NCBI RefSeq assembly: GCF_900115785.1
Contig: NZ_FOYS01000007.1
Location: 1 to 64,000, forward strand
Direction: 5' to 3'
Length of the DNA stretch: 64,000 bases
Source of the DNA: Halogeometricum limi
Lineage (GTDB): Archaea > Halobacteriota > Halobacteria > Halobacteriales > Haloferacaceae
Shown: positions 5,901 to 29,014 of the stretch, piece after piece
Layout: every line of letters starts with the position of its first letter
How positions within the stretch are numbered: the first letter of the stretch is position 1
Notes under the pieces: model-generated
Told to the model about the DNA's origin: nothing
What the model saw: only the letters and a program-made list of their open reading frames with translations
Databases searched by the model: none
Program-made: the position numbers and the translations under genes

Positions 5901-6085
5901 GTCTTGTTCCACGCCGTCCCGAGGTGCATCTGTCCGGAGGTGTACGGCGGGCCGTCGACGAAGAAGAAAGCGGGGTCGTCGGCGTGCGCCTCCTTCGTCG
6001 CCTCGTAGGCGTTCTCCTCGTCCCAGTAGTCGCCGACCGCGGACTCTACGTCCGTCGGCGTGTACTGGTCGGGTAGGTCGTCCAT
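2954..6085 (-). CDS. ileS: Isoleucyl-tRNA synthetase
   Basis: This 1043-aa class I aminoacyl-tRNA synthetase charges tRNA-Ile. The HIGH-type signature is PPYTSGQMHLGT near residues 46-57 and the KMSKS loop is GRKMSKSLGN near residue 600. The editing (CP1) domain has TTTPWTIPANT and the usual GHGQEDF region, followed by the tryptophan-rich catalytic core and an anticodon-binding C-terminal half. The ATG at 6085 (MDDLPDQYTPTDVE) is chosen because a TATA box sits 25 bp upstream; an in-frame start ten codons earlier would overlap that promoter. It is monocistronic by spacing. Confidence 0.96.
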   Translation of the reverse strand: MDDLPDQYTPTDVESAVGDYWDEENAYEATKEAHADDPAFFFVDGPPYTSGQMHLGTAWNKTLKDAIIRYKRMTGHRVTDRPGYDMHGLPIEVKVEEELGFETKRDIEEYGMEAFIEECKSFAERNRVAMDDDFQSIGVWMDWDDPYKTMSPEYMEAAWWAFQQVADRGLVEQGKRSVNYCPRCQTAIAANEVEYDEIESPSIYVKFPLKEKEGNLVIWTTTPWTIPANTFVAVDGEMTYQAVRAEKDGESEVLYVAEPCVEAVLKKGRYEDYEVIAEVSGEEMVGWEYDHPLREEVTEYADFEGAGEVYTADYVEADRTGLVHSAPGHGQEDFARGQELGLDVYVPVDGRGEFTEQAGKYAGAFVRDANDDIVDDLRENGSLLHSGEHHHRYGHCWRCDTDIIFLATDQWFITVTDIKDELLANIEDSEWHPQWARDNRFHDFVSDAPDWNISRQRYWGIPLPIWQADDGDFLVVGTREELAERADQDVDPDELDLHRPAVDPLTITEDGTTYERVPDVFDVWIDSSVASWGTLDYPGNEADFEELWPADLIVEAHDQTRGWFWSQLGMGTAALGEIPYEEVLMHGFANDENGRKMSKSLGNIVTPEEAIDRAGRDPLRAYLLSHDQQGVDLSFEWDGLGDTQSSLNIFWNVFRFPLPYMELDGYDPSNPDLSDGELTLVDEWVLSRLQTVKATVDEAWENYEIHDALNAVLDFVTQDVSRFYVKAIRERMWEEEDSDSKRGAYATLATVLNETVRLVAPFTPYVAERMYQHLDGSETSVHALDYPTVDDEWRDLELERNMAVLRSVEEAAANARQQGERKLRWPVPRVVVESADETVAEAVEALSDLLADRVNTRSVEVVETFDELVEYADPQMGVIGPAFGGDAQKVMEAVKGATRAEVESGIKVDGETVDLTDEMVEYRAEPPENVHGADFLGIDDGEGGVVYVDTSLTEEIEAEGYARDVIRRIQEMRKRLDLDVEEEIAVSLDVQDDRVANLVARHDNLVMEEVRATTLDADGDDTDLTEEWDVEGVTIVIGVTRTA

Positions 6086-6105
6086 ACAGGAGGACAATTC
6101 GGGAA

Positions 6106-6114
6106 CGTATATCA
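6106..6114 (-). promoter_or_regulatory. TATA box of ileS
   Basis: The minus strand reads tgatatacg about 25 bp before the chosen ATG at 6085. This is the spacing expected for a leaderless transcript and it fixes the start codon. Confidence 0.55.
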
Positions 6115-6156
6115 AGTCCGTGGAACCGTGCGAACGGTTCCGTGACCGGGACGCGA

Positions 6157-6744
6157 CTACAACCGCGACCGCGCCGTGAGACTCCCGCTTCGCGGACTCC
6201 CCTTCTCGTCGTACACCCGAACGGTCGCCGTCTTCGGATTCCGCCTGACCTCGTACCGCGCGAGCATCGTACAGACGACTTCGTCCGCGTCACCGACTGT
6301 CTCGGGGAGGTCCGAACCGTACTCGTAACGTTCGAGAGGAAGCGAGATACCGTCGATTCCGGCCCACGCGAGTTCGCCGTGAATAGTCGTCGGCATGGCA
6401 GTGTACGCCTCCTCTCGTGAGGACTTCACCTCGAACAGGAGGAGAAAGCCCGTCGAGTAGTCGTCGTTCCGCACGTCGTTGTCGAGCGATTCCTCTCTCT
6501 GCGGATACGCCTCGGTGAACACGTCGGCGTCGTCCGGCGGCGCTTCGGCGAACAGTTCGGCGTGGTACGTCCGGTTCTCGTCCGCCGAGAGGCCGCCGCG
6601 AATCCACGGTTCGTCCGCGGGGTGAAGCGCCGCCACCGCGTGGTCCATGTCGATGCGGCCGCGGACCTGTCGCTGGGCGGCGTCGAGACAACCGGCGAGA
6701 CCGGTGGTGAGTGCGGCGGCGGAGAGGAGGGCGCGTCGTCGCAT
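6157..6744 (-). CDS. Predicted lipoprotein of unknown function
   Basis: This 195-aa protein begins MRRRALLSAAALTTGLAGC. The arginine cluster plus LAGC is a twin-arginine-like signal with a lipobox, so lipidation at Cys19 and extracytoplasmic anchoring are expected. The rest is soluble, mixed alpha/beta and acidic, with no catalytic motif I can name. Its promoter (aaaatag, 6768-6774) abuts the left end of the 82-bp palindrome at 6772-6853, so that element may have shaped its expression. Function unknown; lipoproteins of this kind are common and fast-evolving in haloarchaea. Confidence 0.75.
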   Translation of the reverse strand: MRRRALLSAAALTTGLAGCLDAAQRQVRGRIDMDHAVAALHPADEPWIRGGLSADENRTYHAELFAEAPPDDADVFTEAYPQREESLDNDVRNDDYSTGFLLLFEVKSSREEAYTAMPTTIHGELAWAGIDGISLPLERYEYGSDLPETVGDADEVVCTMLARYEVRRNPKTATVRVYDEKGSPRSGSLTARSRL

Positions 6745-20701: not shown

Positions 20702-20802
20702 ACCGCTCTCTGTGCTCCGGTGAGGCTTCAATCCCGTGGCTCCGCCGCGTCTTGGTACTGTCACGCACGTCGACGTCCGCGTGCCACGCGTCGATTCGAG
20801 GG

Positions 20803-20810
20803 GCTTTTTC
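20803..20810 (+). promoter_or_regulatory. TATA-like box of DNA ligase gene
   Basis: gctttttc, centred about 28 bp before the ATG at 20835. It lies inside the longer frame from 20736, supporting the later start. Confidence 0.45.
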
Positions 20811-20834
20811 GTCCGCGGAGACCACCGACGAGCG

Positions 20835-22667
20835 ATGCAGTTCGCCGAGTTCGCCACGCGCGCGTCGGAGATGGAGGCCGAACCCGCAGACCTCGCGACC
20901 GTCGCGTTGGTCCGGGACCTGTTCTGTGACGCCGGCGACGACCTTCCGGTCGTCGTCCGCTTCGTCCACGGCCGCGTCTTCCCGGCGTGGGACTCCACGA
21001 CGCTCGACGTCGGCCCGCGACTCCTCCGCGGAGCTATCGCTCGCGCCGCCGGGCAGAACGTCACGGCCGCGGACGTCGAGGACCGACTCGCCGAGGAAGG
21101 CGAAATCGGCGCCGTCGCCGCCGGCTACGACTTCGGCGGCCAGCGAGGACTCGCCGCGTTCGCGGGCGGCGACGACGACGGACTGACCGTCGCCGAGGTG
21201 GACGAGACGCTCCGCGAACTCGCCGCCGCCGCCGGGTCGGGCAGCGAGGACCGCAAACTCAACACGCTGTTCGGCCTGTTCAACCGCACCACTCCCGAAG
21301 AAGCGCGTTACCTCGCTCGTCTCGTCCTCGGCGAGATGCGAATCGGCGTCGGCGAGGGAACCGTTCGCGACGCCATCGCGGAGGCGTTTTTGGCGGTCGA
21401 GGAGACGGGTGAGACGACGGATTCGGAAGCTGACGACGAGCCAAACGACGAAACGAGAGACGAGACGGACGGCGAAACGAGAGACGAGAGCGAGGAACGC
21501 GCCGCGGCGGACGACGACGAAGACCCCCTCACACGCGCGACGGACGAGCAACTCCGGGCCGTCGAGCGCGCCCTGCAGGTGTCGAACGACCACGGCATGG
21601 TCGCCGCCGTCGCTCGCGACGACGGCGAATCCGGGTTGGCGGACGTCCGCCTCGAAGTCGGGCGGCCGGTGCAGGCGATGCTGGCGCAAGCGGGAACCGC
21701 CGCCGACGCACTCGACGAGTGGGGCGAGGCGGCGGTCGAACGGAAGTTCGACGGCGCGCGCGTCCAGGTCCACGTCGAACCCGACGACGAGGGTGAGACA
21801 GCGGGCGTCTCGCTGTACTCGCGGAACATGGACGACGTGACCGCCGCCCTCCCGGACGTCGTCGAGTTCGTCGAGTCCCGCGTCGACGCGCCCGTCATCC
21901 TCGACGGCGAGGTGGTGGCCGTCGACGACGACGGCGCGCCGCGTCCGTTTCAGGAGATTCTGCGTCGCTTCCGCCGAAAGCACGACGTGGACCGGATGCG
22001 AGACGCGGTCCGGGTCGAACTCCACGCCTTCGACTGTCTGCACGCCGACGGCGAGGACTTGCTCGACGCGCCCGTGACCGAACGGCACGCCCGTCTGAGC
22101 GACGTACTCGACGACGCCGGTGCCGTCTCGGACCTCCTCGTCTCCGACGACGGCGACGAGATAGCCGCCTTCGAGGAGGCCGCGTTGGAGGCGGGCCACG
22201 AGGGAATCATGCTGAAGAACCCCGCGTCGGCGTACTCGCCGGGGAACCGCGGAAAGAACTGGCTGAAGCGAAAGCCCGACGTGGAGACGGTCGACCTCGT
22301 CGTGACGGGTGCGGAGTGGGGTGAGGGTCGGCGAGCGAACCACCTCGGGACGTTCCTGCTCTCCGTGCGCGACGGCGGCGACTACGTCGAAATCGGGAAG
22401 GTGGCGACGGGTATCACCGACGAAGAGTTGGCCGACCTCTCGACGCTTCTCGAACCCGAAATCGTCTCCGAGAACGGCCAGACCGTCGAACTGAACCCGT
22501 CGGTCGTGTTCGAGGTGGGCTACGAGGAGATTCAGGCGTCGCCGACGTACTCCTCGGGGTACGCGCTCCGCTTCCCGCGGTTCGTCGCGGTTCGCGAGGA
22601 CAAGGAAGTCGCCGACGCCGACTCGCTTGCACGAATCGAGCGGTTGGCCGAATCGGAGTCCCGTTAG
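20835..22667 (+). CDS. lig: ATP-dependent DNA ligase
   Basis: A 610-aa replicative-type archaeal DNA ligase. Domains in order: an N-terminal helical DNA-binding domain (residues 1-185), an acidic linker (about 189-232), the adenylation domain with motif I VERKFDGARVQVHV (catalytic Lys304), ILDGEVVAVD, EGIMLKNP, and an OB-fold domain from KNWLKRKP. The linker contains a duplicated Asp/Glu/Arg octapeptide encoded by a 24-bp-period DNA repeat (21449-21489), which is unlike its relatives' usual simple linkers. The stop overlaps the stop of the convergent isomerase gene. Confidence 0.95.
   Translation: MQFAEFATRASEMEAEPADLATVALVRDLFCDAGDDLPVVVRFVHGRVFPAWDSTTLDVGPRLLRGAIARAAGQNVTAADVEDRLAEEGEIGAVAAGYDFGGQRGLAAFAGGDDDGLTVAEVDETLRELAAAAGSGSEDRKLNTLFGLFNRTTPEEARYLARLVLGEMRIGVGEGTVRDAIAEAFLAVEETGETTDSEADDEPNDETRDETDGETRDESEERAAADDDEDPLTRATDEQLRAVERALQVSNDHGMVAAVARDDGESGLADVRLEVGRPVQAMLAQAGTAADALDEWGEAAVERKFDGARVQVHVEPDDEGETAGVSLYSRNMDDVTAALPDVVEFVESRVDAPVILDGEVVAVDDDGAPRPFQEILRRFRRKHDVDRMRDAVRVELHAFDCLHADGEDLLDAPVTERHARLSDVLDDAGAVSDLLVSDDGDEIAAFEEAALEAGHEGIMLKNPASAYSPGNRGKNWLKRKPDVETVDLVVTGAEWGEGRRANHLGTFLLSVRDGGDYVEIGKVATGITDEELADLSTLLEPEIVSENGQTVELNPSVVFEVGYEEIQASPTYSSGYALRFPRFVAVREDKEVADADSLARIERLAESESR
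21449..21489 (+). repeat. Direct repeat in the DNA ligase linker
   Basis: The 17-mer cgaaacgagagacgaga occurs at 21449-21465 and again at 21473-21489. The 24-bp period keeps frame and duplicates eight codons. Confidence 0.7.
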
Positions 22668-23509
22668 AAGTACCGCTCTAGCGCCTCGAACGCCGTCTTC
22701 GCGGCCCAGTCGGGTCGGTCGGGGTAGGTGTACAGTTCGAGGGTGACGAAGCCGTCGTAGCCGATGGAGTCGAGCGAATCGAACACGACGTCGAAGTCCA
22801 AGTCGCCCTCGCCGGGGACGAGGTGGTAGTGCTTGCCGCGGATGCCGCCCGCGATGTCTTCGAGATGGACGCCCGTGATGTGGCCCGCGCTCTTCTCGAT
22901 GCTCTCGCGCAGGTCTTCGCCGTAGACGGCGGCGTGGCCGACGTCTAGGTTGACGCCGAGGTTGTCCCGGCCCACGTCGTCGATGAGCGTCAACACCTCG
23001 TCGGTGCACTCCACGAGGAGTTCGGGTTCGAACTCGATTCCCACCTGCACGCCGCGGGGTTCGGCGTAGTCGAGGATGGCGTGGAGCGACGAGACGAGGT
23101 GGTCGTAGGCTTCGTCCGGCATCGTTCCGGGCAGGGGTCGACCCGAGGAGAGACACACCGACGGTGCGCCCGTCGACGCCGCGAGGTCGATAGCGCGCTT
23201 CGTGTACTCGACGCGCCACGTCCTGCGGTCGGCCTCGGGGTTGATGACGCTCGGTTCGAAGAACGCCGACGGCGGCGCGTCCGAGTAGTAGCCGGAGGCG
23301 GTGTTGGCGTTGACGTTCGAGACGGCGATACCCGTCTCGGCGAGTGCGTCGCCGAGGGCGGCGACGTCGTCGGCGTCGAATTCGGGGAAGTACGCGTGCG
23401 GGACGTCGCCGAGGAGTTCGACTCCCGCGTAGCCGTGGTCGGCGATTCGCCGGACTGCGTCGGGGAGCGTGTGGTTCGTGTACGCGTTCGTGGAGAATGC
23501 GAGTTCCAT
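22664..23509 (-). CDS. TIM-barrel sugar phosphate isomerase/epimerase, EboE-like
   Basis: A 281-aa xylose-isomerase-like TIM barrel (AP endonuclease family 2). Metal ligands of the fold are visible in order: Glu in GIEFEPELLVE, Asp in VNLDVGHAAV, His in GVHLEDIAGG and Glu in VTLELYTYPD. It is the last gene of a minus-strand operon, 7 bp after the UbiA-type gene. The companion set matches bacterial ebo clusters, where an EboE isomerase-like protein occurs. The substrate is unknown. A second, diverged copy lies two genes upstream at 24452. Confidence 0.85.
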   Translation of the reverse strand: MELAFSTNAYTNHTLPDAVRRIADHGYAGVELLGDVPHAYFPEFDADDVAALGDALAETGIAVSNVNANTASGYYSDAPPSAFFEPSVINPEADRRTWRVEYTKRAIDLAASTGAPSVCLSSGRPLPGTMPDEAYDHLVSSLHAILDYAEPRGVQVGIEFEPELLVECTDEVLTLIDDVGRDNLGVNLDVGHAAVYGEDLRESIEKSAGHITGVHLEDIAGGIRGKHYHLVPGEGDLDFDVVFDSLDSIGYDGFVTLELYTYPDRPDWAAKTAFEALERYF

Positions 23510-23516
23510 GGTGTCG

Positions 23517-24449
23517 TTAGCTTACGTCGAAGTACCGAGAGAGCGTCGTCGCCGGAAGCGCGAACGCCGCGGCGGCGAGTGCGAACGCCGGTCCCCCGAC
23601 GACGGCGACGGCGGCGTCGAGGAGGACGATGCCGAGGACGCAGGTGCCGACGGCGGGGCCGACGTTCGAGGGGGCGGGGTCGGCGATGGCCGGGCCGAGT
23701 GCGCGCCAGTCCCACGCGAGAAAGCCCGCGGCGACGACCGTCGCGACGAGTCCGGTCGTCGGCGTGCCGAGAACGGTGGCGACGACGGCGACGACCATCG
23801 CCGCCACCGTCGCGCCGACGCCCGTGAGGGCGACGGCCGACCCCTCACCGCCGCCCGTCTCCGCCTCGGCCATGCGCGTCAACGCGGCGACGTAGCCGAC
23901 GACGGCGGCGGGGAACAGCAACGCGACGGGGTTCAGCGCCGCCGCACCCGCGACGGAGAGGCCCAAGAGGACGTTCAGTCCGCGGGCCGACCCCATAGCG
24001 ATGAATCCGAGCGGTCCGCCCTTCAGCAGACCGTCGTAGAGGACGACGGCGGCGGCGAGAACGAGGGCGGTGAGGCCCGTCGCGAATCCCGACACCGCCG
24101 TGGCGACGCCCACGCCCGCGAGGAGGAAGACGACGCCGAGCGAGAGCGCTTCGGAGCGCCCGACGCGCCCGGACGGAATCGGTCGTTCGGGGCGTTCGCT
24201 GGCGTCTTCGTCCACGTCGGCCACGTCGTTCAGCGTCGTCCCCGCCGCGTAGACGAGTGCCGAAGCGAGACAGAGACCGGCGACGGTAACGGGGTCGACC
24301 GTCGCGCCGAGGGCGACGGCGAGGGCGGCGCCCGCGAGGACGTCCGGCGGGGCCGTGAAGATGTTCGGGAGTCGAATCAGGTCGGCGTAATCGGTCGCGA
24401 CTCGCCGAACCCGGTCGAACGCGAGTGCGTCCTCGACTCCCGTCGCCAT
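23517..24449 (-). CDS. UbiA-family prenyltransferase, EboC-like
   Basis: A 310-aa integral membrane protein with eight to nine hydrophobic segments. The first Asp-rich motif is complete (NDVADVDEDASERPERPIPSG, about residues 88-108) and the second is reduced to YDGLLKGGPLG with the DxxxK pattern. These bind Mg-prenyl diphosphate, so transfer of an isoprenoid chain is expected. An EboC UbiA homologue is a core part of ebo clusters. The ATG at 24449 lies 2 bp from the preceding stop; a GTG at 24461 would overlap it. The acceptor is unknown. Confidence 0.9.
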   Translation of the reverse strand: MATGVEDALAFDRVRRVATDYADLIRLPNIFTAPPDVLAGAALAVALGATVDPVTVAGLCLASALVYAAGTTLNDVADVDEDASERPERPIPSGRVGRSEALSLGVVFLLAGVGVATAVSGFATGLTALVLAAAVVLYDGLLKGGPLGFIAMGSARGLNVLLGLSVAGAAALNPVALLFPAAVVGYVAALTRMAEAETGGGEGSAVALTGVGATVAAMVVAVVATVLGTPTTGLVATVVAAGFLAWDWRALGPAIADPAPSNVGPAVGTCVLGIVLLDAAVAVVGGPAFALAAAAFALPATTLSRYFDVS

Positions 24450-24451
24450 CC

Positions 24452-25288
24452 TCAGGTCCACCCGTGGTCGCGGAGGTAGTCCATCGCGCCCTGCGCCGTC
24501 TCGGCGGCCGTCTCCTGGTACGGGTAGAGTTCGACCGTCACGTAGTCGTCGTAGCCGGAGTCTTCGACCGCTTCGAGGAAGCCGTCGATGTCCATCGCGC
24601 CGTCGCCGAGTTGCGTGTGTTCGTGCTCGCGGTCCGCGGGGATGTCCTCTAAGTGATAGTGTTCGGTGTACGGTCCGAGCGTCTCGACCAGTTCCGCGGG
24701 GTCTTCGTCCACGCAGAACAGGTGGCCGGCGTCGAAGTTACAGCCGATGGCGTCGGAGTCGACGCGGTCCATCAGGTCGAGGAACTGACTCGAAGTCTCT
24801 ATCAGGAGGTCGGGTTCGGGTTCGACCAACAGGTCGACGCCCACCTCCTCCGCGTGCGGGGCGAGTTCGGCGAGAGCGTCGACGAACGTCTCCATGCCCC
24901 ACTCGTAGGACTTCTCCTCGGGGACGGGGCCGCCGGGTTCGATGGAGATGTAGTCGCAGTCGAGTTCGGCGGCGGCGTCGAGGGAGTCGCGCGTGTAGTC
25001 GATACGACGCTGGCGGTAGTCTTCGTCCACCTCGACGAACGAGGGGTGGTGGAAGTCCTCGATAGCCGTCAGCATGAACGCGTTGCAGTTGCTGATGGCG
25101 ACGTCGTTTCTATCGAGTGCCGCGCGAACCTCGTCGTACTCCTCGCCGGTCGCCTCCGGCGGGTAGAGAAACGGCTGGTCGAACAGGAGTTCGATGCCGT
25201 CGTAACCCGCGTCGGCGACGGCGTCTATCGCGCCGACGGTGGAGTACTCCCGGAAGGCGTTCATCGAGAAGCCGAACTGGAGCGACAT
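24452..25288 (-). CDS. TIM-barrel sugar phosphate isomerase/epimerase, second copy
   Basis: A 278-aa TIM barrel with the same four metal-ligand positions as the gene at 22664: Glu in LLVEPEPDLLIE, Asp in CNFDAGHLFC, His in EHYHLEDIPA and Glu in VTVELYPYQE. The two copies differ strongly elsewhere, especially around residues 60-120, so they probably act on different intermediates. It sits between the TatD gene (1-bp gap) and the UbiA gene (2-bp gap), so the four genes are surely one transcript. The function is probably sugar or cyclitol isomerisation. Confidence 0.87.
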   Translation of the reverse strand: MSLQFGFSMNAFREYSTVGAIDAVADAGYDGIELLFDQPFLYPPEATGEEYDEVRAALDRNDVAISNCNAFMLTAIEDFHHPSFVEVDEDYRQRRIDYTRDSLDAAAELDCDYISIEPGGPVPEEKSYEWGMETFVDALAELAPHAEEVGVDLLVEPEPDLLIETSSQFLDLMDRVDSDAIGCNFDAGHLFCVDEDPAELVETLGPYTEHYHLEDIPADREHEHTQLGDGAMDIDGFLEAVEDSGYDDYVTVELYPYQETAAETAQGAMDYLRDHGWT

Positions 25289-25289
25289 C

Positions 25290-26144
25290 TCACTGGCCCT
25301 CGGTGGTCGTCACCGTCTCGTTCGCCGAGGACTCGGCGGCGACGGTGCGGGCGTAGTCGAAGTTCGGCGACTGCGAGAAGAACTCCATCGGGTTCTCGAA
25401 CAGGAGTTTTCGGACGGTGTCGCGTTCCCACCCGGCGTCTATCATGGCGTCGCGCGCCTCGGGGACGGCGAGGGGGTTCGAGTCGTCCCAGTCCGCCGAG
25501 GAGTTGATGATTCGCTTGTCGGTGCCGTACTCTTCGAGGAGCGGCATGACCTCCTCGATGGATATCTTGCCCGGATAGAGCGTGAAGCCGAGCCAACAGT
25601 CCGTCGCGGCCGTCGTCTCCATCGTCCCGGGTTCGTTGTGGTCGATGATGATGCGCTCTTGGGTGACGTCCATCTCCTCGATGATGTCGACGGTCCGAAC
25701 CGCACCTTTCGGCTTCTCCGTGTGCGGGAGGTGGATGATGACCGGTTGTTCGTGTTCTTCGGCGAGGCGGAGTTGCTCGCGGAAGGCCCACTCCTCCTCG
25801 TCGGTCTGGAGGTTGAACCCGATTTCGCCGACGCCGACGACGCGGTCACGCTCTAAGTACTCCGGCAGGCGGTCGATGACCGCTTCGGACATCTCGCGGT
25901 CGACGGCCTCCTTCGGGTTGATGGAGACGGTGACGTAGTGGTCCATCCCGGCGATTCGCTCGGCGCGTTCGGTCTCGAAGTCGATGATGTGCTCGAAGTA
26001 GTCGAAGAACGACTCGGGGTACATCTTGTCCGACCCCGACCAGAACGAGGGTTCGATCACGCACTCGATGCCGGACCGCCGCATCTCGCGGTAGTCGCTC
26101 GTCGTGCGCGAAGTCATGTGCGCGTGGGAGTCGATGAGACGCAT
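25290..26144 (-). CDS. TatD-family metal-dependent hydrolase, EboB-like
   Basis: A 284-aa amidohydrolase-fold enzyme. Metal ligands are IDSHAHM (HxH), Glu in GVGEIGFN, His in VIIHLPHTEK, His in IIIDHNEPG and Asp in NSSADWDDSN. The ATG at 26144 gives MRLIDSHAHM; three extra codons upstream are possible. As the first gene of the operon it diverges from the inositol-phosphate-synthase-like gene over 189 bp. TatD-like EboB proteins are part of ebo clusters; other TatD proteins are nucleases, so the substrate cannot be read from sequence alone. Confidence 0.9.
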   Translation of the reverse strand: MRLIDSHAHMTSRTTSDYREMRRSGIECVIEPSFWSGSDKMYPESFFDYFEHIIDFETERAERIAGMDHYVTVSINPKEAVDREMSEAVIDRLPEYLERDRVVGVGEIGFNLQTDEEEWAFREQLRLAEEHEQPVIIHLPHTEKPKGAVRTVDIIEEMDVTQERIIIDHNEPGTMETTAATDCWLGFTLYPGKISIEEVMPLLEEYGTDKRIINSSADWDDSNPLAVPEARDAMIDAGWERDTVRKLLFENPMEFFSQSPNFDYARTVAAESSANETVTTTEGQ

Positions 26145-26261
26145 AGAGACCACTCCGGACTATACGGGCTTTGTTACCGACGTCATACAGGTTTAGCACC
26201 GGCGAAAGACGGGTCGGAAGCCGTAGTAGCGGACGTTTAACGGCGGGTTGCGATCGCCAGA

Positions 26262-26280
26262 GACGGCCGTTTCAGCCGTC
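26262..26280. promoter_or_regulatory. Inverted repeat in the divergent ebo-like promoter region
   Basis: Arms gacggc and gccgtc separated by cgtttca lie between the two divergent transcription units, 20 bp before the TATA-like box of the synthase gene. It is a candidate operator. Confidence 0.3.
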
Positions 26281-26299
26281 GATTCCACCGAAGCAGATG

Positions 26300-26307
26300 C
26301 ATAACTA
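26300..26307 (+). promoter_or_regulatory. TATA-like box of the inositol-phosphate-synthase-like gene
   Basis: cataacta, centred about 31 bp before the ATG at 26334. Confidence 0.45.
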
Positions 26308-26333
26308 ACCCCGTCCCGTCGCCCCCTAGGAAC

Positions 26334-27608
26334 ATGACGCGAACGCGAACGGGTGTCTGGTTCGTCGGCGCCCGCGGCAACGTCGCGACCACGGCTATCA
26401 CCGGGGCGCGAGGCATCGCTCGGGGGACGACCGACGGCACGGGCATGGTGACCGCCCGCGAACCCTGCAGTCTTCTCGACCTGCCCGACGTCGACGGCTT
26501 CGTCTTCGGCGGGCACGACATCGCGGACCGACCCCTCCTCCACACGGCGACCGAACTCGCCGACTCGGACATCGTCGACCGGGAGACGCTCGAAGCCGTC
26601 GCCGACGACCTGCGCGAGATAGACGGCCGGGTGAAGACCGGCACCGCACGCAACTGCGGGAGCGCCGTCTCTCTGGCCGACGGCGACACCCTCGACCGAG
26701 ACCACAGCGTGAGCGAGGTAGTCGAACAGATTCGTACCGACTTCGCCGACTTCGTCGACGAGACGGGCGTGGACCGCCTCGTCGTCGTCAACCTCGCCTC
26801 CTCGGAACCGCCGGTGAGAGACGCCGCGAAGTACGACACGCTGGCGGCGTTCGAGGACGCCGTCGAGTCCGACGACGCCGACCTGCCGGCGAGTTCGCTG
26901 TACGCCTACGCGGCCCTCGTGGACGGCCATCCGTACGTCAACTTCACGCCCTCGACGGGGAGCGAACTCGGCGGCCTCCGCGAGTTGGCCGACAGAGAGA
27001 ACGTCCCGCACGTCGGCCGAGACGCCAAGACCGGCGAGACGCTCCTGAAGACCGCACTCGGACCCATGTTCGCCGGACGCAACCTCGACGTGTTGTCGTG
27101 GGACGGCTTCAACATCCTCGGTAACGGCGACGGGAAGGTGCTCGAAGACGACGAGAACAAGGCCGGGAAACTGCAGAGCAAGGGCGGGGTCCTGTCGAAC
27201 ATCCTCGGCCCGAACATGCACAACCGCGTTCGCATCGACTACACGCCCTCGCTGGGCGACTGGAAGACGGCGTGGGACCACGTCCACTTCGAGGGGTTCA
27301 TGGGGACGAAGATGAGCCTCCAGTTCACGTGGCAGGGCGCTGACTCCTCGCTCGCGGCCCCTCTCGTGTTGGACCTCGTGCGCCTCGTCTCACACGCCGA
27401 CGAACGCGGCGAAGGCGGGGTACAGAAACACCTCGCGTCGTTCTTCAAAGAGCCGATGGACGTGGCCGAACACGACCTCTCGCGACAGTTCGCCATGCTG
27501 GAGTCCTACGTCGAGAGCCACCGAGACGACGCGGACGAGACGGTCGACCCCGTCTCGATGCGGACGGACGGTTCCGGCATCGACGCCGACACGGAGGCGA
27601 ACCGATGA
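26334..27608 (+). CDS. Inositol-3-phosphate synthase family protein
   Basis: A 424-aa protein of the myo-inositol-1(3)-phosphate synthase family, which cyclises glucose 6-phosphate with tightly bound NAD. The Rossmann loop is WFVGARGNVATTAI. The active-site region runs from LSWDGFNILGNGDGKVLEDD to LQSKGGVLSNILG, and the C-terminal TWQGADSSLAAPLVLDL is a family hallmark. The DGFNILGNGDG form differs from the eukaryotic SYNHLGNNDG, so a different sugar phosphate is possible. The stop codon overlaps the next ATG. It diverges from the ebo-like operon. Confidence 0.9.
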   Translation: MTRTRTGVWFVGARGNVATTAITGARGIARGTTDGTGMVTAREPCSLLDLPDVDGFVFGGHDIADRPLLHTATELADSDIVDRETLEAVADDLREIDGRVKTGTARNCGSAVSLADGDTLDRDHSVSEVVEQIRTDFADFVDETGVDRLVVVNLASSEPPVRDAAKYDTLAAFEDAVESDDADLPASSLYAYAALVDGHPYVNFTPSTGSELGGLRELADRENVPHVGRDAKTGETLLKTALGPMFAGRNLDVLSWDGFNILGNGDGKVLEDDENKAGKLQSKGGVLSNILGPNMHNRVRIDYTPSLGDWKTAWDHVHFEGFMGTKMSLQFTWQGADSSLAAPLVLDLVRLVSHADERGEGGVQKHLASFFKEPMDVAEHDLSRQFAMLESYVESHRDDADETVDPVSMRTDGSGIDADTEANR

Positions 27609-29014
27609 CGGAGCGAATCGCCGAACGAGTCGTCGTCTTGGACATCGTCGGACTCCAACCCGACCACGTCGACGCCGAAACGACGCCGAACCTCGCCCGT
27701 CTGTTCGACGACGGGGCGACGACGGGCGCCGTCCCGCCGTTCCCGGCGGTGACCATCCCCTCGCAGACGACGCTCTCGACGGGAACCGCGCCGGCGACGC
27801 ACGGCGACGTGTCGAACGCCGAGTACGACCGCGAGACCGACACCGTCGAACTGTGGGGTCGCAACAGCGGCGACCGAAAGCGCGTGTGGGAGGTCGCACG
27901 CGACGCCGGCGTCGAGACCGGCGCGCTGTTCTTCCAGCACCTCTACGGCACCTCCGCGGACGTGGCGGTGACGCCGAAGCCCATCGAGGACGAGAACAAC
28001 GACCTCATCGAGATGAACTGCTGGACGAACCCCGACGAGTTCTACGAGGAACTCCGCGAGGAGTACGGCCACTTCCCGCTTCACAACTACTGGGGGCCCG
28101 CGGCGAACGCCGAGAGCAGCAAGTGGATACTCTCCGCCGCCCGCGAGGCGACGGAGCGCTACGACCCGGAGATGCTCTGGACGTACCTCCCGCACCTCGA
28201 CTACACGGGGCAGAGCCACGGGCCGGACTCCGAGGCGTTCGCCGGCGCGCTCTCCGAAATCGACGAACTCGTCGGCGACTACCTCTCGTTCCTCGAGTCG
28301 ACTCCGGCGTGGGAGGAGACGGCCGTCGTCGTCGTCAGCGAGTACGGCTTCCACGACGTGTCGAACCCGGTGTTCCCGAACCGTGCACTCCGCGAGGCGG
28401 GCCTGATGAAGACCCGAGACGCCGACGACTCCGGGCGGATTCCGGACCTCGACGCCTCCGAGGCGTTCGCCGTCGTCGACCACCAGGTCGCGCACGTCTA
28501 CTGCGACCAAGACGCGGTCGAGACGGCAAGAGAGGCCCTCGAAGCGCTCGACGGCATCGAACGAATCCTGGACGGCGACGACCAGGCGGCGTACGGCATC
28601 GACCACCAGAACGCGGGTGACCTCGTTCTCGTCGCCGACCCCGACGCGTGGTTCGCCTACTACTGGTGGAACGAGGGCGAAACGGAGGCGATGCCGCCGT
28701 ACGCCGACAGCGTCGACATCCACGAGAAACCCGGCTACGACCCCTGCGAACTGTTCCTCGGCGACACCGGGTTCGTCTCGACGGACCCCTCGAACGTTCG
28801 CGGCTCTCACGGCCGCGTGGACGAGGAGACGATGCCGTTCTTCGGTATCGGCGGCCCCGCCGCGCCGTCGCTGTCGCTGGACGGCGACATCGACATGCGA
28901 CAGGTCGCGCCGACGGTCCTGGACCTCCTCGGCGTCCACGACGAGGTGGAGATGCCGTTCGAAGGGGCGTCCATCCTCGCGCCGACGAGCGAACTCGGCC
29001 CCGCCGACGACTGA
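27605..29014 (+). CDS. Alkaline-phosphatase-superfamily phosphohydrolase, EboF-like
   Basis: A 469-aa protein of the nucleotide pyrophosphatase/phosphodiesterase branch. The nucleophile loop is FPAVTIPSQTTLSTG (Thr near residue 46), with the first Asp in VVLDIVGLQ. The second metal site is YLPHLDYTGQSHGPDS. The usual SDHG metal motif is instead VSEYGFHDV, followed by AFAVVDHQVAHVY and the final His in GSHGRVDE. No signal peptide is present, so it is probably cytoplasmic. It overlaps the synthase gene by 4 bp, implying sequential action, for instance removing a phosphate or nucleotide from the cyclised product. Confidence 0.87.
   Translation: MTERIAERVVVLDIVGLQPDHVDAETTPNLARLFDDGATTGAVPPFPAVTIPSQTTLSTGTAPATHGDVSNAEYDRETDTVELWGRNSGDRKRVWEVARDAGVETGALFFQHLYGTSADVAVTPKPIEDENNDLIEMNCWTNPDEFYEELREEYGHFPLHNYWGPAANAESSKWILSAAREATERYDPEMLWTYLPHLDYTGQSHGPDSEAFAGALSEIDELVGDYLSFLESTPAWEETAVVVVSEYGFHDVSNPVFPNRALREAGLMKTRDADDSGRIPDLDASEAFAVVDHQVAHVYCDQDAVETAREALEALDGIERILDGDDQAAYGIDHQNAGDLVLVADPDAWFAYYWWNEGETEAMPPYADSVDIHEKPGYDPCELFLGDTGFVSTDPSNVRGSHGRVDEETMPFFGIGGPAAPSLSLDGDIDMRQVAPTVLDLLGVHDEVEMPFEGASILAPTSELGPADD

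Follow-up and report, generated by a model that had tools for sequence, protein, structure and literature searches.

The ebo operon received its name in 2016; bacteria and plastids were the only places where the published survey detected it (PMC5133447). Operons with the gene set eboA-F occur in Bacteroidetes, cyanobacteria and eustigmatophyte plastids (PMC5133447, PMC6282210). EboD has been proposed to make a cyclitol (PMC5133447), and a role of ebo in metabolite export across the membrane has been shown only in Nostoc punctiforme (PMC6282210). In Streptomyces coelicolor, SCO3242 has been described as a transferase and SCO3243 as a myo-inositol phosphate synthase (PMC3610822). Here we describe a related set of six genes in the haloarchaeon Halogeometricum limi, at positions 22664-29014 of the window, that is, the whole analysed stretch of 64,000 nucleotides from contig NZ_FOYS01000007.1. 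A literature search, outside which most subscription papers lay, returned no archaeal ebo cluster and no ebo cluster with a myo-inositol-phosphate synthase.

The set encodes a TatD-like metal-dependent hydrolase, a UbiA-family membrane prenyltransferase, two xylose-isomerase-like TIM barrels (TIM1 and TIM2), a myo-inositol-phosphate synthase (MIPS) and a type I phosphodiesterase-like protein. On balance, we lean towards regarding it as a horizontally spread, EboA-less variant of ebo in which EboD has been replaced by MIPS and which makes a prenylated, inositol- or cyclitol-derived membrane compound. Like the ebo operon, it combines adjacent homologues of EboB, EboC and EboF with a sugar-phosphate cyclase and xylose-isomerase-like TIM barrels. 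Unlike that operon, it has no EboA, carries MIPS rather than the sugar-phosphate cyclase EboD and two short TIM barrels for the long EboE, and is arranged divergently (4+2 genes) in an archaeal host. As it contains none of EboA, EboD and EboE in the strict sense, we call the set ebo-like rather than a member of ebo.

Relationship of the six proteins to EboA-F

The TatD-like protein shares 38-41% full-length identity with EboB of EboD-type clusters (Aureibacter, Azospirillum, Deinococcus, Salipiger, Mycetohabitans); E. coli TatD aligns with it at 27% over 91 aa only. On this identity and its position in the tree, the protein is assigned to EboB. The EboB metal ligands are conserved in 30 of 30 sequences. 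The phosphodiesterase-like protein aligns across more than 420 residues, at 33-39% identity, with the EboF proteins of EboD-type and actinobacterial clusters and is likewise assigned to EboF. In an alignment with the solved pyrophosphatase/phosphodiesterase 2gsn, it keeps the nucleophile Thr50 and Asp199 and has altered metal ligands at three positions (Asp to Val15, His to Gln, and Asp-His to Glu246-Tyr247). The canonical two-zinc site of nucleotide pyrophosphatases/phosphodiesterases is therefore absent. Glu246 and Tyr247 are invariant in 27 EboF proteins, archaeal and bacterial. It would be unsafe to credit any EboF with an ordinary phosphodiesterase activity. The structure prediction for this protein was poor (mean predicted local distance difference test score, pLDDT, 56).

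Against NCBIfam, the UbiA protein scores 183.8 bits with the EboC model and 164.7 bits with the SCO3242 model; the next best match, an archaeal lipid enzyme, reaches 63 bits. In the UbiA tree it groups with EboC, actinobacterial SCO3242 and bacterial MIPS-linked UbiA proteins (94 in the Shimodaira-Hasegawa-like approximate likelihood ratio test, SH-aLRT) and is separated from the other UbiA proteins of haloarchaea; those of the haloarchaeal clusters form a single group (99). The motif NDxxDxxxD is invariant. We thus place the window protein in the EboC clade. A role in archaetidylinositol synthesis was considered and dropped, since the protein falls within this clade and not with the archaeal lipid enzymes. 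Full-length similarities and trees agree in this respect with an earlier note on this DNA, made from the sequence alone, which had proposed an archaeal relative of ebo with counterparts of EboB, EboC and EboF.

On the TIM barrels and the cyclase, by contrast, the wording of that note finds no support. TIM1 and TIM2 score 24.7 and 21.5 bits with the NCBIfam EboE model, far under its cut-off of 250. Nevertheless, TIM1, TIM2, an actinobacterial TIM barrel (SPI) and EboE group together (95) to the exclusion of the six other PF01261 proteins from the window genome that the tree included. They share a conserved metal-site motif with invariant acidic and histidine residues. By the curated model TIM1 and TIM2 are not EboE, yet they are its nearest kin in haloarchaea. 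The structure model of TIM1 (pLDDT 96.7) resembles ketose 3-epimerases and sugar isomerases, the nearest structures being the D-tagatose 3-epimerase-like 3wqo and the isomerase Art22. VIA-align points to no specific substrate, because Z is tied among many sugar isomerases in its list.

The cyclase belongs to PF07994/PF01658, and its best solved relative is the Archaeoglobus fulgidus synthase 1u1i (residues 8-392 aligned, E 2e-87). Four lysines (K279, K283, K311 and K372), invariant in 17 aligned sequences, are identified as the catalytic ones by the alignment and by established work on the A. fulgidus enzyme. We therefore regard the cyclase as a true myo-inositol-phosphate synthase and not a relative of EboD. 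No EboD match was obtained in the haloarchaeal loci, and PF01761, the EboD family, gave nothing above its cut-off in nine haloarchaeal genomes including that of the window. Among the loci compared, those bearing MIPS are without EboD and those bearing EboD are without MIPS; since the families differ (PF07994 versus PF01761), an unrelated enzyme has taken the place of EboD. MIPS and EboD-type cyclases both form a carbocycle from a sugar phosphate. MIPS in the place of EboD agrees with the cyclitol proposal (PMC5133447). The absence of EboA had also been noted earlier and stands: model NF035938 was silent in 10 cluster-bearing haloarchaeal genomes, though equally so in control genomes, so that the absence rests partly on tblastn searches with three EboA proteins, which found no match in the haloarchaeal loci.

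Linkage in Halobacteria and bacterial counterparts

Two samples of Halobacteria were surveyed, of 116 and 391 genomes. Within the smaller one, MIPS and a close UbiA (at least 46% identity) co-occur in exactly the same 10 genomes, and eight of these ten loci have TatD-TIM1-UbiA-TIM2 divergently facing MIPS-EboF. One of the ten genomes has TIM2 beyond EboF. In another genome (G020), the set is dispersed: three separate places hold MIPS, a TatD-TIM1-UbiA block and TIM2, and a bacterial-type EboF (47% identity to Azospirillum EboF) lies at a fourth (L158, G020:C2:36327-37466) with no other ebo gene nearby. This protein may substitute for the haloarchaeal EboF that G020 lacks. The persistence of all six functions in a broken-up cluster argues for their functional linkage.

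MIPS was detected in 54 of the 391 genomes (two only as fragments), representing 20 genera when weak matches are counted. Weak matches to the EboE model (at most 31 bits against the cut-off of 250) occur in 55 genomes, 52 of which also carry MIPS (hypergeometric p = 1.7e-58, uncorrected for relatedness). Most of these matches (73 of 90) lie less than 8 kb from MIPS, and orientation is divergent in 43 of the 48 MIPS loci that have an EboE-like TIM barrel within 8 kb. The neighbourhood is thus conserved across haloarchaea, and the six genes are not a chance neighbourhood. The earlier note had held that its reading would fall if the neighbours varied among haloarchaea or if the UbiA and phosphatase-like proteins grouped away from EboC and EboF; neither was observed. 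Some genomes have genes inserted between UbiA and TIM2, varied in kind and with no constant partner. Plasmid-borne copies were found for MIPS in Halocatena, Natronococcus, Halobaculum and Halomarina and for UbiA in Haladaptatus; together with the patchy distribution, they suggest horizontal spread of the set among haloarchaea.

The linkage of MIPS to the other genes is not absolute. Three genomes (G298, G368, G324) possess the five other genes and no MIPS, with PF07994 silent elsewhere in them. In a fourth (G358), a close relative of the window genome, an internal in-frame deletion has cut MIPS to about 110 codons (L201, C5, around 6050-6380), leaving the five neighbours intact. Conversely, G207 and G383 have MIPS with both flanks free of cluster genes for about 7.5 kb or more and with EboE-like TIM barrels nowhere in the genome. 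Given four genomes that keep five genes without MIPS and two with MIPS alone, the core seems to consist of EboB, EboC, EboF, TIM1 and TIM2, with MIPS supplying a precursor obtainable otherwise. The simplest guess is that inositol uptake replaces MIPS in the four genomes.

A bridge between the haloarchaeal set and ebo is provided by actinobacteria. A plasmid of Streptomyces sp. NBC_00826 carries consecutive genes for MIPS, an SCO3242-type UbiA, a TIM barrel, EboA, a TatD-like EboB, EboE and EboF, and the same MIPS-type ebo cluster, without EboD, is present in Embleya, Nonomuraea, Planosporangium, Thermomonospora and Georgenia. The Streptomyces cluster resembles the window set in its MIPS (43% identity), SCO3242-type UbiA, TIM barrel, EboB (41%) and EboF (38%), and differs in having EboA and a true EboE and in being arranged as one operon. 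In the tree, the TIM barrel of this cluster, SPI, corresponds to neither TIM1 nor TIM2.

Closer in content is a proteobacterial metagenome-assembled genome (L037), which has the same six genes (MIPS, TIM2, EboB, TIM1, UbiA and EboF) within 12 kb, with TIM1 and TIM2 orthologue-like to the archaeal ones. In contrast to the window, all lie on one strand. An isopentenyl-diphosphate (IPP) isomerase gene (166 bits, NCBIfam cut-off 127) lies upstream, overlapping the MIPS start by one base, and genes for a TonB-dependent receptor and a TonB C-terminal protein sit inside the cluster (L037:7685-10907), a possible sign that the product or a ligand is transported. Planctomycetota carry MIPS-TIM1-UbiA loci; unlike the window set, these are without EboF and mostly without EboB nearby. 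In the trees, archaeal EboB adjoins L037 (90), TIM1 groups with L037, L064 and L109 (95), and TIM2 with L037 and L092 (95), and a bacterial source of the haloarchaeal set appears likely. A row of genes on a Hymenobacter plasmid (L026:7782-16483) forms another MIPS cluster of different make-up: besides MIPS, it includes an HD-domain protein, Gfo/Idh/MocA oxidoreductases, a YcaO protein, an SPI-type TIM barrel and a PIG-L deacetylase.

Layout of the locus

The coordinates of the six open reading frames are listed in Table 1. Their Pfam matches (PF01026, PF01261 twice, PF01040, PF07994 with PF01658, and PF01663) all exceed the gathering score. With the ATG starts of Table 1, the minus-strand genes are separated by 1, 2 and 7 bp, and MIPS shares its last 4 bp (27605-27608) with EboF. 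Gene composition, gaps, overlap and spacer length are therefore as the earlier note had given them. It had also described the 189-bp spacer as a shared control region. No regulatory motif common to the spacers of different genera was found, their lengths range from 170 to 667 bp, and with the spacer unconserved, control shared by the two gene halves is an inference. In two genomes (L016, L018), the spacer between the TatD-like gene and MIPS contains a small conserved CxxC-type reading frame. An ATP-dependent DNA ligase gene (window 20736-22667) ends at TIM2; such a gene also stands beside the cluster in L030, L193, L194, L200 and L201, marking a partly shared insertion place.

Table 1. Features of the ebo-like locus in the Halogeometricum limi window.
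Feature	Position	Strand	Evidence and remarks
TIM2: xylose-isomerase-like TIM barrel, PF01261, 281 aa	22664..23509	-	Pfam, tree, metal-site motif
UbiA-family membrane prenyltransferase, predicted EboC/SCO3242 clade	23517..24449	-	ATG 24449, GTG 24461 possible; NCBIfam, tree
TIM1: xylose-isomerase-like TIM barrel, PF01261, 278 aa, ketose-3-epimerase-like fold	24452..25288	-	Pfam, structure model
Predicted EboB: TatD-like metal-dependent hydrolase	25290..26144	-	ATG 26144, GTG 26153 possible; identity to EboB
Divergent intergenic spacer, 189 bp, presumed promoters	26145..26333	.	Sequence not conserved between genera
Predicted MIPS, PF07994 + PF01658, 424 aa, in the place of EboD	26334..27608	+	Pfam, 1u1i alignment
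Predicted EboF: type I phosphodiesterase-like protein, PF01663, 469 aa	27605..29014	+	Pfam, identity to EboF

Proposed function and competing explanations

We propose the following pathway. MIPS, with its conserved catalytic residues, would cyclise glucose 6-phosphate to inositol phosphate. EboF might act on the phosphate or on a phospho-intermediate, a weak assignment in view of its altered metal site. TIM1 and TIM2, judging from fold and metal-site residues, may use a divalent metal to isomerise, epimerise or dehydrate the cyclitol in a keto form, and EboB may hydrolyse or trim an intermediate. The membrane UbiA would join a cyclitol-derived acceptor to an isoprenoid chain, as the NDxxDxxxD motif and the IPP isomerase gene in the bacterial operon suggest. 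By analogy with Nostoc ebo mutants, the product, a prenylated cyclitol-derived membrane compound, could help to move or anchor a metabolite. Survival of the five other genes without MIPS in four genomes is expected in such a pathway if the MIPS product can be obtained elsewhere, for example by inositol uptake.

Several observations weigh against this proposal. EboA and EboE proper are absent, with none of the 391 Halobacteria exceeding the EboE cut-off, and the UbiA protein falls under the NCBIfam EboC cut-off (250 bits). The trees were quick ones, supported by SH-aLRT alone. Loss of the usual zinc ligands makes a phosphatase role of EboF doubtful. That four genomes have lost MIPS could instead mark it as an optional add-on. 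To our knowledge, no protein of the six-gene set has a known activity. Furthermore, the compound that the EboC protein Ubi-297 prenylates in vitro is aromatic and not a cyclitol (PMC9235831).

The main competing explanation, which we rate as unlikely yet worth serious attention, invokes a lipid carrier. UbiA, like decaprenyl-phosphate phosphoribosyltransferase, would load a phosphorylated cyclitol or sugar onto polyprenyl phosphate, EboF would remove a phosphate, a TIM barrel would epimerise the head, and the loaded carrier would cross the membrane. The adjacency of UbiA, a phosphatase-family protein and isomerase-type enzymes fits this scheme; however, UbiA groups with EboC and SCO3242 and matches the phosphoribosyltransferase model weakly (24 bits), and no flippase is linked to the cluster. 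Improbable, in our judgement, is a unit for inositol use or breakdown, in which inositol or phosphoinositols would be the substrates of the TIM barrels, the TatD-like hydrolase and the phosphodiesterase, with UbiA carried along as a passenger. The TIM barrels do resemble IolI, IolO and ketose 3-epimerases, the five genes persist without MIPS as though inositol came from outside, and the Halocatena cluster is flanked by sugar ABC transporter genes. Yet haloarchaea and bacteria alike retain UbiA as constantly as the other genes, a biosynthetic MIPS does not fit a breakdown unit, and EboB, EboC and EboF also occur in clusters making no inositol.

The missed EboE and EboC cut-offs and the absence of EboA and EboD could also mean that the haloarchaeal operon is unrelated to ebo and draws on the same superfamilies by chance. 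We consider such a coincidence very improbable: EboB and EboF share 33-41% full-length identity with their counterparts in EboD-type clusters, the UbiA protein falls in the EboC clade, and the actinobacterial clusters bridge the two systems. As for the cut-off, an Azospirillum EboC from a genuine ebo cluster scores only 89 bits with the EboC model, lower than the window UbiA (184 bits).

Returning to the MIPS-containing ebo variant, we tentatively speculate on a wider generalisation. Clusters of the ebo type could be defined by a cyclitol precursor with a swappable cyclase. This would be EboD in most bacteria and MIPS in haloarchaea, actinobacteria and some further bacteria, whereas organisms that may take up the cyclitol would have no cyclase. 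EboB, EboC, EboF and xylose-isomerase-like TIM barrels would convert this precursor into a new class of prenylated membrane compounds shared by two domains of life. The ebo product has been unknown since the operon was named in 2016. The exchange of EboD for an unrelated, well-understood cyclase points to an inositol-type ring as the precursor and makes the cyclitol hypothesis directly testable by inositol labelling; haloarchaeal strains that differ in MIPS and keep the rest of the set amount to something like a natural knock-out.

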